From positions 1 through 23,238 of the IMG/VR virus record IMGVR_UViG_3300036830_000109: a stretch of DNA of 23,238 nt. One strand, 5' to 3'. A program made the translations under genes and the position numbers. Shown piece by piece: positions 12,419-23,207 of this stretch. Source of the DNA: a virus. The notes beneath the pieces were generated by a model. It was given only the letters and a program-made list of their open reading frames with translations. It had not been told where the DNA came from and ran no database searches. How positions within the stretch are numbered: the stretch's first letter is position 1; each line of letters begins with the position of its first letter.

Positions 12419-13648
12419 ATGGCGACGGCACCGGCTCAAGAGGCAGGCGCGCGCGCCGGCGGACATTTCCGCCGGGCGCTGGCCGCGCAGCTTGACGCCA
12501 CAATTGCCATCGCAACCGACATTGCCGACGAGGAGGGCGTCGATCTTACCGGCCTTTCAGGCGGCCATGCCTTTTTTGGATCTTCCGGTCTTTCGCCCGG
12601 ATCGAGCTTTTCGCCCGCGGTTGTACCATCGGCCACTCCACCGGCTTCCGGCGACTCGCAAAGCTTTGCCAATCCCGATCTTGTGCCGGATGCGATGCAC
12701 CGCCGCATCGATATCGGCGGCGGCGGTTTCGCGACCGATCGCTATAACAATCCTGGCGCACAGTGGCCGACCGAGCGCGCCGTTCGCTATGGCATGAGCG
12801 GCTATGGCGTGATCGGCGGCGGTAATAAAATCGCTGCTTTCCCGACGCCGGTTCACGGCGCCGCTGCCAATATGGATTTGCTGGCGCACCGCTATGCCGG
12901 CAAGACGATCGGCCAAGCCGCCCGCGAATGGTCCGGCGGCGGCCGTGGCGCGGTGCCAGGCTATTCATCTGACCAGCGCATCACGCCTGAATTAGCGCGC
13001 GACCCGAATTTTATGATCCCGTTCATGCGCTCGCATGTTGCCGGCGAGGGCACGCGCCGGCCGTTGACCGATCAGCAATGGGCCGATGCCTTTCGTCTCT
13101 ACCGCTCCGGCGGCCGTGGATGGGATGAGCGGTTGCCAGCACTGGCGGCCGCTGCGGCAAACGTCTCAGCGCCAGCCGGTGCGCCTGGCGCAGCGGTCGA
13201 TAGCGCGCTCGGCGAACTTGGTTTGCATGAGCGCCGCGATCGTGCGGCAGTTCGGCAATATCTCGCAACGGGCGGGTCGGGTCTTGATCCGGCTACAACG
13301 GCCTGGTGCGCGGCTTTCGTTAATTCCTCGCTGCAACAGCACGGCATCGAGGGCAGCCATTCCAATGTCGCGAATAGTTTTCAGCGATGGGGTGCCCCGG
13401 TTCATGACGGCGCGCAGCGCGGCGATGTGGTCGTTATTCCGCGCGGCCGCGGTCCTAACGAGACCGGGGGGCACGTCGGCCTTGCAACCGGCAATGTGCG
13501 CACCGATGCGCGCGGCAATCGCATGGTCGAGATGATCAGCGGCAATCGCCGCGATCGAGTCGAATTGAGTTGGGAACCTGAAAGTCGCGTCATGCTGCGC
13601 CGCGCCCGTGATACCGCGCCCGCGCCATCGGCTGTTGCCGCGCAATAA
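12419..13648 (+). CDS. tail-associated CHAP/NlpC-type murein hydrolase
   Basis: A 409-aa protein, three bases after FII. Residues 1-95 are low complexity. Residues about 108-232 form a domain starting RYNNPGAQWPTERAVRYG and containing FPTPVHGAAANMDLLAHRYA, a pattern found in phage tail-lysozyme-type proteins. Residues about 260-395 are a CHAP-like cysteine peptidase or amidase domain: TTAWCAAFVNSSLQQHGIEG with candidate Cys297, GGHVGLATG with His352, and SGNRRDRVEL with Asn376. It could cut peptidoglycan during genome entry, or during lysis. P2 has no gene between FII and E, so this is an insertion in the conserved order. No signal peptide is visible. Confidence 0.8.
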   Translation: MATAPAQEAGARAGGHFRRALAAQLDATIAIATDIADEEGVDLTGLSGGHAFFGSSGLSPGSSFSPAVVPSATPPASGDSQSFANPDLVPDAMHRRIDIGGGGFATDRYNNPGAQWPTERAVRYGMSGYGVIGGGNKIAAFPTPVHGAAANMDLLAHRYAGKTIGQAAREWSGGGRGAVPGYSSDQRITPELARDPNFMIPFMRSHVAGEGTRRPLTDQQWADAFRLYRSGGRGWDERLPALAAAAANVSAPAGAPGAAVDSALGELGLHERRDRAAVRQYLATGGSGLDPATTAWCAAFVNSSLQQHGIEGSHSNVANSFQRWGAPVHDGAQRGDVVVIPRGRGPNETGGHVGLATGNVRTDARGNRMVEMISGNRRDRVELSWEPESRVMLRRARDTAPAPSAVAAQ

Positions 13649-19029: not shown

Positions 19030-20223
19030 ATGTCGCAAACTGTCCGCATCAAACGCCGCGTCACTGGCGCACCAGGCGCGCCGTCAGGTCTTAAGACTGG
19101 CGAGCTGGCCTGGAACATGGTCGATAATATCGTCTATGGCGGCTTTGGCGATGATGGCTCCGGCAATGCCACAAGCGTCAAGCCGGTCGGCGGTCAGGGC
19201 ATCACGCTCGATCAATTCACCGCGCCGGCGGCCAATGTCGGCTTTAACAGCAAAAAGATCACATCGCTGGCCGATCCGTCATCGGCGCAAGACGCGATGA
19301 CCAAGGCTTATGCCGATGCGCATTATGCCGCCGCCTATACCGGCGGCACCGGCATCTCTATCGCCGCCGGTGTGATCAGCATCGACACCTCGCTTGTCGC
19401 GCGTATTGGCGTGACCGGGCTTAACTCTTTCGCTGCCCCTAGCGGTTCGGTTGGCATGGGAAGCCAGCGTATTACATCCCTCGCCGATCCGACCAGCGCG
19501 CAGGATGCCGCTACCAAGGCTTACGTCGATGCCAAGGCGCAAGGTCTTTCGCCGAAAATGTCGGTGCAGGCGGCGAGCGCGGCCGCACTAGCAGCAAACA
19601 CTTATAACAATGGCGCGTCCGGTGTCGGCGCCACGCTGACCGGCAATGCCAATGGCGCTTTGACCGTCGATGGCTATTCGCCCTCGGTCAATGATCGCAT
19701 CCTTGTGCAGAATGAGGCGGCCCCGGCGAATAACGGCATCTATACTCTCACACAAGCCGGCGACGGCTCGCATCCCTACATTCTGACCCGCGCAACCGAT
19801 GCCGATACATCGGCAAAAATCCTTGGCGCTTTCGTTTTCGTCGAGGGCGGTTCAGTCAACGCCGCATCGGGCTACACGCTGGCCTCGACCGGCCCGCTCA
19901 CGCTCGGCACCACGTCGATCAGCTTTACGCAATTCTCTGGTGCCGGCGAGGTTACCGCCGGCGTCGGCCTGTCGAAAACCGGCAATACGCTCTCGATCAG
20001 CGCAGCGTGGGTCGGGCAAACCTCGATCACCACGCTCGGCACGATCGCGACTGGTGTCTGGCATGGCACGATCGTCGGCCTGGCATACGGCGGCAGCGGC
20101 GCCGATCTGACCGCGTTGGCCGATGGCGCGCTGCTCAAAAAGAGCGGCACCGCTTTGGTCGCCGCGGTTGCCGATACCGATTACGCCACGCCGAGCAGCA
20201 CGATCGACGGCGGCACGTTCTAG
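19030..20223 (+). CDS. tail fibre protein 2
   Basis: A 397-aa fibre whose N-terminus (SQTVRIKRRVTGAPGAPSGL then KTGELAWNMVDNIVYGGFGD) is the same type as that of the first fibre. Two tail-fibre repeats follow (KKITSLADPSSAQDAMTKAY at 75-94 and QRITSLADPTSAQDAATKAY at 146-165). Next is a widespread fibre module (residues about 176-304: NTYNNGASGVGATLTGNANG, NGIYTLTQAGDGSHPYILTR, FTQFSG), then an ITTLGTIATGVWHGTIVG and YGGSG segment. It ends STIDGGTF. No distinct receptor-binding head follows the shaft modules, so another protein may cap it. ATG 19030 follows the previous stop without a gap. Confidence 0.85.
   Translation: MSQTVRIKRRVTGAPGAPSGLKTGELAWNMVDNIVYGGFGDDGSGNATSVKPVGGQGITLDQFTAPAANVGFNSKKITSLADPSSAQDAMTKAYADAHYAAAYTGGTGISIAAGVISIDTSLVARIGVTGLNSFAAPSGSVGMGSQRITSLADPTSAQDAATKAYVDAKAQGLSPKMSVQAASAAALAANTYNNGASGVGATLTGNANGALTVDGYSPSVNDRILVQNEAAPANNGIYTLTQAGDGSHPYILTRATDADTSAKILGAFVFVEGGSVNAASGYTLASTGPLTLGTTSISFTQFSGAGEVTAGVGLSKTGNTLSISAAWVGQTSITTLGTIATGVWHGTIVGLAYGGSGADLTALADGALLKKSGTALVAAVADTDYATPSSTIDGGTF
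19234..19317 (+). repeat. fibre repeat, copy 1
   Basis: This stretch encodes residues about 69-96 of fibre 2, the phage fibre repeat around ITSLADP and DAxTKAY. Copy 2 lies at 19444-19530. Protein identity is high, but third-codon positions differ, so the copies are not recent. Confidence 0.75.
19444..19530 (+). repeat. fibre repeat, copy 2
   Basis: This stretch encodes residues about 139-167 of fibre 2 and matches copy 1 around ITSLADP, SAQDA and TKAY. Such repeats form intertwined strands in trimeric fibres and are common recombination points between phages. Confidence 0.75.
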
Positions 20224-20268: not shown

Positions 20269-20739
20269 ATGCGACGTTTGCTCGCCATGTTCGGCGTTTG
20301 CTTTTTGCTGGCCGGATGCGTCACCGCATCAGATGCGCGCAGCGGATTGATCACTGTGCCGACCGCCGCCGGCATCGATATTACGGTCGCGCCTGGTTTT
20401 TCAGGCGCTATCCAAGGGTTTATCGGTGATCTTGTCGCCCGCGGTTATCATCCGAAAAAAATCCACTGCTTTTCGATGGCGCGCTCGCACGTCTCTAACT
20501 CGCTGCATCATTCCGGCAATGCGTGCGATTTCGATCAAAGCGGATGGGGCCGCACTGCGGCGCCGATGTATCACGTCTCTGATTTGGCGGCCAAGTGGGG
20601 CCTGCGCGATGGCGGAGAGTTTCGCGATTGGGGCCATATCGATAATGGCAAGCATCTTTCCCGCCAAGGTCGCCGTGAGGCCATCGGTGCAACACCGTTT
20701 TACGGCCCCACATCGCTCATGCTCGATTCTCATATCTAA
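20269..20739 (+). CDS. predicted lipoprotein M15-type murein peptidase
   Basis: A 156-aa protein starting at ATG 20269 with TTGGAGA just upstream; an in-frame TTG at 20257 lies in that site and is unlikely. Residues 1-17 (MRRLLAMFGVCFLLAGC) form a lipoprotein signal with lipobox LAGC and Cys17. The rest fits the M15 (VanY / L-Ala-D-Glu peptidase) fold: SxHxxGxAxD appears as SLHHSGNACD, with His80 and Asp87 as zinc ligands, and the later GEFRDWGHID supplies Glu117 or Asp120 and His123. It should cleave peptidoglycan stem peptides from a membrane-anchored, periplasm-facing position. It opens the lysis cassette. Confidence 0.78.
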   Translation: MRRLLAMFGVCFLLAGCVTASDARSGLITVPTAAGIDITVAPGFSGAIQGFIGDLVARGYHPKKIHCFSMARSHVSNSLHHSGNACDFDQSGWGRTAAPMYHVSDLAAKWGLRDGGEFRDWGHIDNGKHLSRQGRREAIGATPFYGPTSLMLDSHI

Positions 20740-20750
20740 CGGCGTTTTGC

Positions 20751-21224
20751 ATGTCATCGAGTGATAGTGATCAAAACGCCGATAGTGATCCTGCTCTCGA
20801 TCAGGCAATTCTCGCTCACGACGCGGCGCGTCAGGCTTACATCCTGCGCAACCGCGCGGTTCGCCGGATCATGGGCGTGGCAACCTTTGTCGTTTGGCTC
20901 GCCGGCAACGTGCTCATTATCAGCGCCGGCCTGGCGTTTGATGATGTCGCGCACCGCATCGCGGCGCTCGCAACCGTCATCGGTTCATTCGAGATGGCCG
21001 CAATGGGCGTTATCTCGATGTATTGGGGCGTCGGCGCTTTCGACAACCGAAGCATGATGGGCGGCGGCGGTATGTATGGCGGCGGAATGTACGGATCGAG
21101 TATTGGCGGCATGGGCGGCAGTTTCAATTCCGCGCCGATCGGCGGTCTGCCCTCTGCCCGACCGGCCGCCGGTCGACTGACTAAGACTCCGGTCGCTGCC
21201 GGCGGCGCTGTTCCGGCGGCCTGA
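20751..21224 (+). CDS. holin-like membrane protein
   Basis: A 157-aa protein with a charged N-terminus (residues 1-40), two hydrophobic segments (about 41-62 GVATFVVWLAGNVLIISAG and 71-95 ALATVIGSFEMAAMGVISMY) and a long Gly/Met/Tyr-rich tail with GGGMYG repeats. Two membrane spans in a small protein next to lysis enzymes suggest a class II holin, although the long C-terminal tail is unusual. The sequence alone does not prove pore formation; it could also be an antiholin or another membrane protein. Confidence 0.6.
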   Translation: MSSSDSDQNADSDPALDQAILAHDAARQAYILRNRAVRRIMGVATFVVWLAGNVLIISAGLAFDDVAHRIAALATVIGSFEMAAMGVISMYWGVGAFDNRSMMGGGGMYGGGMYGSSIGGMGGSFNSAPIGGLPSARPAAGRLTKTPVAAGGAVPAA

Positions 21225-21260: not shown

Positions 21261-21914
21261 ATGTCTCTCGACATCACCGATCCGATTCAAGACCTGTGGG
21301 CGGAATGCCCCGTGCCGCTCTTGCAGGGCATCATCGACACTGCCGATGATGTATTCGCCAAGTTCCAATTCACCGGCAACCGCTTGCGCATCCTTCATGC
21401 GATGACGCAATTCAGCGCCGAAACCGGCGGCGGCCGCCCGAGTGAATTGCAGGAAAACATGCACTACTCGGCCGAGCGCATGCGCCAGGTCTGGCCGCGG
21501 CGTTTCAAGATGATGAGCGATGCCGACTTGGCGCCGATGGTCGGCAATCCCGAGGCGTTGGCCGATTCTGTCTATGGCAGTCGCATGGGAAACAATCAGC
21601 CGGGCGATGGCTTTCGTTTCCGCGGTCAAGGCTTGTCGCAACTCACTGGCCGCGACAATTACGCGAAACTAAGCCCGATCGTCGGCATCGATCTTATCGC
21701 GCACCCGGAAGCATTGCTCGATCCGAGCACCGCATTCCTCTGCGGCGTCGCTGATTTCATTATGTGCGATTGCGTTCCGTATGCCGACCAGGATGATGTG
21801 CTCGCTGTTAGTGGCGCGCTCAATGTCGGGCATCCGAGCGTCACCGAGGCCGAGGTTGTCGGCTGGCAGGATCGCGAGCAGTGGTATCGAACATGGGCGG
21901 CGAGGCTCACATGA
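21261..21914 (+). CDS. endolysin, GH19 chitinase-like muramidase
   Basis: A 217-aa glycoside hydrolase family 19 endolysin, cutting the glycan strands of peptidoglycan. Family marks are HAMTQFSAETGGGRPSELQE (about residues 46-65) with Glu54 as the likely acid, ENMHYSAERMRQVWPRRF with Glu65 as a candidate second residue, NPEALADSVYGSRMGN, and GFRFRGQGLSQLTGRDNYAK (about 117-136). There is no signal peptide, so export would need a holin, which fits the preceding gene. GGAGG precedes the ATG. The stop overlaps the next start as ATGA. Confidence 0.9.
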   Translation: MSLDITDPIQDLWAECPVPLLQGIIDTADDVFAKFQFTGNRLRILHAMTQFSAETGGGRPSELQENMHYSAERMRQVWPRRFKMMSDADLAPMVGNPEALADSVYGSRMGNNQPGDGFRFRGQGLSQLTGRDNYAKLSPIVGIDLIAHPEALLDPSTAFLCGVADFIMCDCVPYADQDDVLAVSGALNVGHPSVTEAEVVGWQDREQWYRTWAARLT

Positions 21915-22342
21915 TGCGCATACTCCCCCTTGGACTCATTCTTGTCATCGGTCTCTGCGGGCATCCGGCTCGCGCGGACGTTCTGACCTCGATCGGTTGC
22001 GCAATCCTTCCGTCGCAATGCCAGATGCCGGTGCCTGCGCCGACGAGGCGTCTATCGAGCAAGCCTGTTGCACCAAAGCACGTTGCGACCAAGCCTGTGA
22101 AGGCCAAAGCCGTACAGGCGATGCCGGTGAAGGCGCCGCCATTGCATGCGGCCAGCGTCCCCACGCCAAAGCCAAGGCCTAAGCCTAAGCCGGTTAAATC
22201 TCGTCGCTCATCGCGCGCGGCGCAACACCCGCATCTCGACAAGAACGCTCGCACCCTTGACGTGCAGGTCAACGTCCCGGCGCGGCTGATGGCGCATAAG
22301 CCGCCGGCGAATCATAAGGGCCGCGCCAAAAAGCATCGCTGA
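21911..22342 (+). CDS. exported Lys/Pro-rich protein
   Basis: A 143-aa protein whose ATG 21911 overlaps the endolysin stop. An in-frame start at 21881 is less likely. Residues 1-22 are a signal peptide (MMRILPLGLILVIGLCGHPA then RA), with probable cleavage at ARA/DV. The mature part is strongly basic and Pro-rich (PTPKPRPKPKPVKSRRSSR) with Cys30 and Cys37. It could bind peptidoglycan, lipopolysaccharide or DNA in the periplasm. Its place between endolysin and spanins suggests a lysis accessory role. I recognise no family. Confidence 0.65.
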   Translation: MMRILPLGLILVIGLCGHPARADVLTSIGCAILPSQCQMPVPAPTRRLSSKPVAPKHVATKPVKAKAVQAMPVKAPPLHAASVPTPKPRPKPKPVKSRRSSRAAQHPHLDKNARTLDVQVNVPARLMAHKPPANHKGRAKKHR

Positions 22343-22365: not shown

Positions 22366-22899
22366 ATGCTCGCTATACTTGTCGCGGCTGTCAGTAGCCT
22401 CGGCCCGCTGGCGCTTGCTGGCGGACCGCTCGGCATCGCTCTTGCTTGGGGCGGTAGCTTTGTGGCGAATAAGACGGTCAAGATCGTCGCGATCTGCGCC
22501 GGTCTGCTCTTGCTGATCAGCGTGAGCGTCGGCCTGACCATCCACATCAAAAACCTTGAAGCCGATCGAGCGGCCTACAAGCTACTCAAGGCCGAGCATG
22601 AGTCGCTCGAAGCCTATTACGGTTGCCCGTTGCGCGCCGAGCATGAGCGCGATCTTGGCGCCTGCCTGACCGCCCGCGAGCGTGATGTAGAAAAGGCCCG
22701 CGCCGAAAAGCTTGCGGAATTGCAGCGCCAGGCTGCGCAAGCGCAAGCCGATCTGGCCGATGCCACGGCAAAAAACGAACAGCTATCGGGCGCGCTCGAT
22801 GATTTTATCAATAGCCGCGCCGCCGGCGGCGACGGCCCGGTGCCGCAGGTCTTGAAAGATTATTGGGCGCATGAGCGCGCCGAAAGGGGGCACCGATGA
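22366..22899 (+). CDS. inner-membrane spanin-like protein (Rz type)
   Basis: A 177-aa protein with two hydrophobic N-terminal segments (about residues 1-30 and 38-61, VAICAGLLLLISVSVGLTIH) followed by a long Ala/Glu/Lys-rich coiled coil (about 62-145) with Cys87 and Cys100. That is the layout of an i-spanin, except that lambda Rz has a single transmembrane segment. It overlaps the next, lipoprotein, gene by ATGA, the usual i-/o-spanin pairing. It would bridge the envelope and fuse the membranes at the last step of lysis. Confidence 0.7.
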   Translation: MLAILVAAVSSLGPLALAGGPLGIALAWGGSFVANKTVKIVAICAGLLLLISVSVGLTIHIKNLEADRAAYKLLKAEHESLEAYYGCPLRAEHERDLGACLTARERDVEKARAEKLAELQRQAAQAQADLADATAKNEQLSGALDDFINSRAAGGDGPVPQVLKDYWAHERAERGHR

Positions 22900-23207
22900 T
22901 GCGTGTCGCTATCTTGATGGCAATCGCGCTGGCGCTCGGCGGTTGCGTTACCGACCAGCCGGCCGCCCCATTAATGGCCGAGGTCATCGGCCCGACATTT
23001 TCGGAGAGTCAATTCGCCTGCGGCCAGCGGCCCTTGCCGCCAGATGATCCGAATGCTGTCGGTCCCGCCGCCGGCTCGGCCGCCGCGCATTACGAAAACC
23101 GGCTCGGCACCTGGGGGCAATCCTGCGCTAACCGGCTCACCGCGATCGGTGCGCAATTGAAATCGGCCGGCCAAGTGGTCACCGCAAATGCGGGGGCGGC
23201 GCGATGA
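22896..23207 (+). CDS. outer-membrane lipoprotein spanin-like (Rz1 type)
   Basis: A 103-aa protein with a lipoprotein signal ending LALGGC (Cys17 acylated), then CGQRPLPPDDP near residues 42-52 and a TWGQSCANRL segment with Cys77. The Pro-rich part and lipobox fit an o-spanin. It is longer than lambda Rz1 (60 aa) and out of frame with, rather than nested within, the i-spanin gene. AAAGGGGG (22883-22890) precedes ATG 22896; ATG 22899 is an alternative. The stop overlaps the next start as ATGA. Confidence 0.72.
   Translation: MMRVAILMAIALALGGCVTDQPAAPLMAEVIGPTFSESQFACGQRPLPPDDPNAVGPAAGSAAAHYENRLGTWGQSCANRLTAIGAQLKSAGQVVTANAGAAR

Follow-up and report, generated by a model that had tools for sequence, protein, structure and literature searches.

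A predicted lipoprotein with an M15/LAS-type zinc peptidase domain in the lysis cassette of a contractile-tailed phage

Results

Gene content of the lysis cassette

The window, meaning the whole stretch of DNA analysed here (23.2 kb of a viral record), holds tail and lysis genes of a phage with a contractile tail. The gene under study, whose product we call the window protein, directly precedes a holin candidate, followed by a GH19 endolysin and Rz/Rz1-like genes (Table 1). A GGAG lies 6 bases 5' of its ATG, which is a normal distance.

Table 1. Positions of the genes and sequence features in the window.
Feature	Position	Strand	Details
Tail-fibre-like gene	19030..20223	+	directly upstream; cassette boundary
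Predicted lipoprotein with M15/LAS-fold zinc peptidase domain	20269..20739	+	156 aa
Lipobox region L13-L-A-G-C17	20305..20319	+	PS00013 match; +2 residue Val
Zinc motif S78-x-H80-x2-G83-x-A85-x-D87	20500..20529	+	predicted ligands H80, D87
Predicted catalytic acid D120 and third zinc ligand H123 (D-W-G-H)	20626..20637	+	
Holin candidate	20751..21224	+	157 aa; hydrophobic segments 40-58 and 70-88; Gly/Met-rich tail
Soluble GH19-type endolysin	21261..21914	+	217 aa; phrog_181, 5.3e-38
Short exported Pro/Lys/Arg-rich protein	21911..22342	+	143 aa; signal-like N-terminus
i-spanin (Rz-like) candidate	22366..22899	+	N-terminal hydrophobic segments, charged periplasmic part; weak PHROG Rz matches
o-spanin (Rz1-like) candidate lipoprotein	22896..23207	+	LGGC lipobox; weak PHROG Rz1 matches, PS00013

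The holin candidate had no family match. The GH19 protein was assigned to PHROG endolysin family 181 (5e-38) and contains no signal or TM segment, in agreement with the soluble endolysin of the initial annotation. That annotation had also placed the window gene beside the endolysin. The two do share a cassette, but they are not immediate neighbours, as the two-TM holin candidate lies between them. The Rz-like gene and the o-spanin candidate gene share 4 bases at the end of the former. The short exported protein, encoded between the endolysin and the spanin pair, has 27 Lys and Arg versus 3 Asp and Glu residues. Elsewhere in the window, the product of 12419-13648 carries a CHAP/NlpC-like C-terminal domain and matches the PHROG annotation 'baseplate hub subunit and tail lysozyme'; it is a second, virion-borne candidate for a wall enzyme.

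Signal sequence and lipobox

The N-terminus of the window protein (MRRLLAMFGVCFLLAGC) satisfies the PROSITE lipoprotein rule, with LAGC at residues 14-17, and the clear lipobox claimed earlier was thus found. Only two of the 29 non-overlapping ORFs of the window match PS00013, namely this one and the o-spanin candidate. A positive n-region, a hydrophobic h-region, the lipobox and a Cys within positions 15-35 are all present, and the protein divides into a signal (1-16), Cys17, a short linker (18-25) and the domain (~26-136). Lipid anchoring is therefore predicted from the sequence.

In SAR endolysins, a weakly hydrophobic N-terminal signal anchor stays uncleaved. The window protein has a hydrophobic N-terminal segment, and the lipobox in it predicts cleavage. 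This is its single hydrophobic segment, meaning that the C-terminal TM segment of a u-spanin is absent, and this assignment was set aside. A virion protein was also set aside: the lipoprotein signal argues against it, although the tape-measure relatives described below are virion proteins.

In Escherichia coli, lipoproteins are retained in the inner membrane only with Asp at position +2, and alphaproteobacteria have no recognisable LolB (PMC4623201). As the +2 residue of the window protein is Val and not Asp, placement in the outer membrane is likely.

Assignment to the M15/LAS fold

With the window protein alone, neither the M15 models of Pfam and NCBIfam nor a PDB sequence search gave a match, and PHROG endolysin families were reached only below threshold (E 0.2-0.3). 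By tblastn, ~30% identity was found to domains inside tape-measure proteins of Rhizobium phages, which Pfam assigns to Peptidase_M15_4. A profile built from the window protein and these domains found the L-Ala-D-Glu endopeptidases 2vo9 (4e-8), 6akv and ChiX (5opz) in the PDB. When the profile of the family alignment A3 (20 sequences, window protein included) was compared with the tape-measure M15 domains by hhalign, the probability was 96.7% over 98 columns. Used alone, the family profile had no significant match in the PDB; 1lbu, a Streptomyces zinc carboxypeptidase, was rejected (E 0.54, with the motif only in the alignment). Large proteins of both Rhizobium and environmental phages, tape-measure proteins among them, also contained M15_4 domains (L002-L006, L019-L040).

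AlphaFold models were built for the window protein (pLDDT 78) and for its phage relative L083 (pLDDT 84). The top PDB structural matches of both came from the M15/VanY/LdcB/hedgehog group, including VanYB and LdcB/DacB. The best VIA match was DacB (4nt9), with Z 8.8 (89 residues, 4.1 A) and Z 9.0 (100 residues, 4.5 A) for the two models. Foldseek against the PDB gave a probability of 0.99 but E-values of 0.01-0.02, and among viral models the best matches were M15 peptidases (E 5e-7). Z values of 8-9 are modest, yet the leading matches belong to one superfamily. Judged by profiles, the two predicted models and structure searches, the window protein belongs to the M15/LAS fold.

Zinc site and conserved cysteines

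The zinc site reads S78-L-H80-H-S-G83-N-A85-C-D87, followed by D120-W-G-H123, and so contains both H80-x6-D87 and D120-x2-H123 (D/ExxH). H80, D87, D120 and H123 were invariant in A3 and, together with the first Cys pair, in alignment A5 (21 rows, including three distant relatives added). Since the ligands and the acid are invariant in both alignments, the motif is no chance match. The M15 zinc motifs of the initial annotation were thus borne out, and the zinc ligands are conserved, contrary to one of its refuting conditions. A chance ORF was set aside as well, the family being conserved.

The first Cys pair (C67/C86) was invariant among the aligned family members, and C86 falls inside the zinc motif. 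The second pair (116/121) was missing in the same four sequences (window, L085, L086 and L088). Because both Cys were lost together in exactly these four, they were read as a putative disulfide, and their joint loss is consistent with an oxidising periplasm.

A zinc-binding but inactive M15/hedgehog-like lipoprotein with a binding or scaffold role would agree with the loss of Cys116/Cys121 in the window copy and with the hedgehog signalling domain, whose fold is the same and whose site is similar. However, all aligned members conserve D120 no less strictly than the zinc ligands, and we regard inactivity as improbable.

Phage and chromosomal relatives

Scans of viral and genome collections with the single sequence found nothing, and a scan of viral contigs for HxSGNACDF matched other M15-type endolysins only. 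Of 13 matches to a degenerate motif in genomes, two were true relatives (Rhodomicrobium udaipurense and a Hyphomicrobiales MAG, 46-50% identity). These two and two more genomes formed alignment A2, with which IMG/VR searches found 26 phage relatives; A3 added three more. In total, 29 phage and four chromosomal relatives (Rhodomicrobium-type bacteria) were found, sharing 32-54% identity and the same active site with the window protein. No match to the Rhodomicrobium-type protein was found in GenBank phages or PLSDB plasmids. In the DNA examined, L007-L010, the phages whose tail sheath is most similar, had no M15-like gene; L007 and L008 have GH19.

The gene is rare in cellular genomes: it was found in 4 of 397 genomes of the order (1e-5), 1 of 385 of the class and 4 of 8 of the family. 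Three further, weaker profile matches among the order's genomes lay inside proteins of 870-930 aa. All four chromosomal copies were flanked by ordinary, non-phage genes, meaning that the family is not solely for lysis. For the environmental phages of this family, the chromosomal homologues point to Hyphomicrobiales.

All relatives with a readable N-terminus had AxA-type (SPI) signal peptides, and a lipobox was found in none of them (L117-L119 included). The search for other lipobox M15 proteins in phages, suggested by the initial annotation, was therefore negative among these relatives. Its view that a lipoprotein lysin is unusual holds for the lipid anchor but not for Sec export, which is normal in this family.

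The signals of the relatives favour a reading in which Cys17 is incidental and the window protein is, like them, a soluble periplasmic or signal-anchored enzyme. Against this, its LAGC satisfies the full lipoprotein rule, no good AxA site follows it, and the same cassette encodes a second lipoprotein (LGGC); we consider the non-lipidated form improbable.

Most relatives carry a His-rich linker after the signal peptide (e.g. HHHHRHHHH). Such a stretch between signal and M15 domain was seen in L073, L074 and L083-L105, with as many as 19 His among the first 90 residues in L105, and in the Rhodomicrobium-type chromosomal copies; it possibly serves zinc loading or control. The relative at L089:7323-8423 has an extra N-terminal domain with a YkuD-like H..SKGC motif, read by eye as an LD-transpeptidase look-alike; sequence searches of Pfam, PHROG and the PDB gave no match for it.

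Within the family, a lipobox occurs only in the window protein, which has lost both the His linker and one of the two putative disulfides. The tree placed it in a group with L083 and L086 (96/92) and gave it a long branch (1.29). The preferred reading of the lipid anchor is a change confined to this lineage, although a single long-branched row gives no date for it.

Linkage to endolysin genes

A recognised endolysin was found within 3 kb in nine of 16 independent contexts (0.5 to 2.8 kb off, or overlapping). It was GH19 in the window, L083 and L119, GH24 in L087, L098 and the L099 group, GH108 in L088 and L107, and a peptidoglycan-binding endolysin in L118. The three glycosidase families are unrelated to one another. 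In L098, L099 and L107, the gene overlaps the GH24 or GH108 endolysin gene. A rough binomial estimate gave P ~7e-4 against an 18% background, with the background rate and the division into 16 contexts both chosen for this analysis. No recognised endolysin was found nearby in L084, L089, L090, L108 and L117 (five of the 16 contexts), and the copies in L090, L108 and L117 sit among replication-type genes. Hence, the link of the family to lysis is frequent, not universal. Near the M15-like gene, L085:1666-2235 and L086:4382-4960 encode a common lysin candidate of 190 aa (67% identity); in L086, it had no match in Pfam or PHROG.

The phage copies outside the lysis region agree with an envelope-modifying accessory gene (moron) that is not a lysin and sits in the late region by chance. 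Such a product would trim peptidoglycan peptides like a carboxypeptidase or change the envelope during infection or lysogeny, e.g. by excluding other phages. It would fit the DD-/LD-carboxypeptidases among the best structural matches (VanYB, DacB/LdcB), Sec export, which means action before lysis, the chromosomal copies among ordinary genes, and pneumococcal DacB, a lipid-anchored LD-carboxypeptidase (PMC6202950). The overlap with GH24 or GH108 endolysin genes in several phages, the endolysins within 3 kb in nine of the 16 contexts and the position of the window gene directly before the holin candidate, endolysin and spanin genes speak against it. We rate an accessory gene as rather unlikely, though as a serious alternative.

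Discussion

Phage lysis models comprise cytoplasmic or SAR endolysins plus spanins. The Sec-exported M15-like phage proteins described here are a real, uncurated family that often accompanies an endolysin, without a Pfam, NCBIfam or PHROG family. Its members (L083-L108, L117-L119 and the Rhodomicrobium-type copies) share an identical active site, often near an endolysin, and have an SPI signal, usually a His-rich linker and mostly the second putative disulfide, whereas the window protein has a lipobox instead. Its relatives are exported without such an anchor, so that it represents an unusual variant within a family that is little known.

Among known systems, ChiX of Serratia marcescens, a phage-type LAS/M15 L-Ala-D-Glu endopeptidase (5opz; PMC5778951), likewise belongs to a lysis-type cassette. 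Its H68/D75/H123 and D120 (PMC5778951) are spaced as H80/D87/H123 and D120 of the window protein, with the ligands H and D seven apart and the catalytic D and the third ligand H three apart. The predicted folds of the window protein and L083 are similar to ChiX (Z 5.4 and 6.8), while sequence identity is only 14-15%. ChiX has no obvious signal peptide and needs the holin-like ChiW, whereas a Sec/lipoprotein signal is built into the window protein itself. The L-Ala-D-Glu endolysins Ply500 and LysB4 (2vo9, 6akv), reached by profile via the tape-measure M15 domains, have the same fold (Z 6.0-7.2); unlike the window protein, they are soluble, modular enzymes of Gram-positive phages and stay cytoplasmic until the holin opens. 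DacB/LdcB of Streptococcus pneumoniae, the best structural match, is a membrane lipoprotein with an M15 domain (PMC6202950), as predicted here, but it is a cellular, Gram-positive housekeeping enzyme that trims tetrapeptides. The tape-measure M15_4 domains (RHEph10, V1VFA-S and others; ~30% identity over the domain) lie within a virion protein of ~1500 aa, unlike the window protein. Rz1-type o-spanins are also small lipoproteins of phage lysis cassettes, but they have no enzyme domain, and the window cassette has a separate Rz/Rz1-like pair.

On balance, we slightly favour a Sec-exported, lipid-held M15/LAS zinc peptidase acting as an auxiliary wall enzyme of the lysis cassette. Computation shows the ORF, the lipobox, the fold, the complete and invariant active site, the family and, among relatives, the frequent linkage to endolysins; lipidation, outer-membrane location, catalysis, bond specificity and the likely role in lysis are what we infer. 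In this reading, Sec would export an M15/LAS-fold zinc peptidase, which signal peptidase II would cleave just ahead of Cys17; the lipid would then hold the protein, probably in the outer membrane and facing the peptidoglycan from outside. It would be produced along with the lysis cassette. Once released by the holin, the GH19 endolysin would cut glycan strands; in the same wall, the window protein would cut cross-links or peptide stems, and the Rz/Rz1-like spanins would act afterwards. The combination proposed initially, a lipoprotein with an M15-type zinc site in a cassette with GH19 and a spanin pair, stands as a prediction, and relatives often adjoin glycosidase endolysins.

Several results count against the auxiliary wall enzyme. 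The window protein alone is accepted by no curated family model, the relatives have no lipobox, five of the 16 contexts have no endolysin, and three copies lie among replication-type genes. The long branch and the lost second Cys pair make a changed function conceivable. Moreover, an enzyme exported ahead of the holin should not be strongly lytic. As export precedes holin firing, activity before lysis must be weak, regulated or non-lytic alone, which also fits a carboxypeptidase-like accessory gene. The activity before holin triggering raised in the initial annotation would apply to the whole family and argues for a weak, controlled or trimming activity.

Lipid-anchored M15 enzymes are known in cells, such as pneumococcal DacB (PMC6202950). 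Sec-exported phage endolysins are also known, namely SAR types and one with a cleavable signal in a Gram-positive phage (PMC6139136, PMC8879335). A literature search for lipoprotein endolysins or a lipid-anchored phage wall enzyme found no report among the papers covered, an absence that is weak evidence.

The Sec-exported M15-like family, often beside unrelated glycosidase endolysins and without a curated model, is a gap in annotation. It raises the question of how a wall peptidase is exported early without premature lysis, and the window member adds a predicted lipid anchor to this design. More specifically, and unlikely in our estimate, an outer-membrane-anchored phage peptidase would work from the wall's outer face, where it would cut peptidoglycan peptides or the links that join peptidoglycan and outer membrane. 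If true, GH19 would cut glycan from the inner side in cooperation with an enzyme that cuts peptides from the outer side, and the lysis cassette of a phage would contain a lipid-anchored wall enzyme that evolved from a broader M15-like phage family of soluble, exported proteins.
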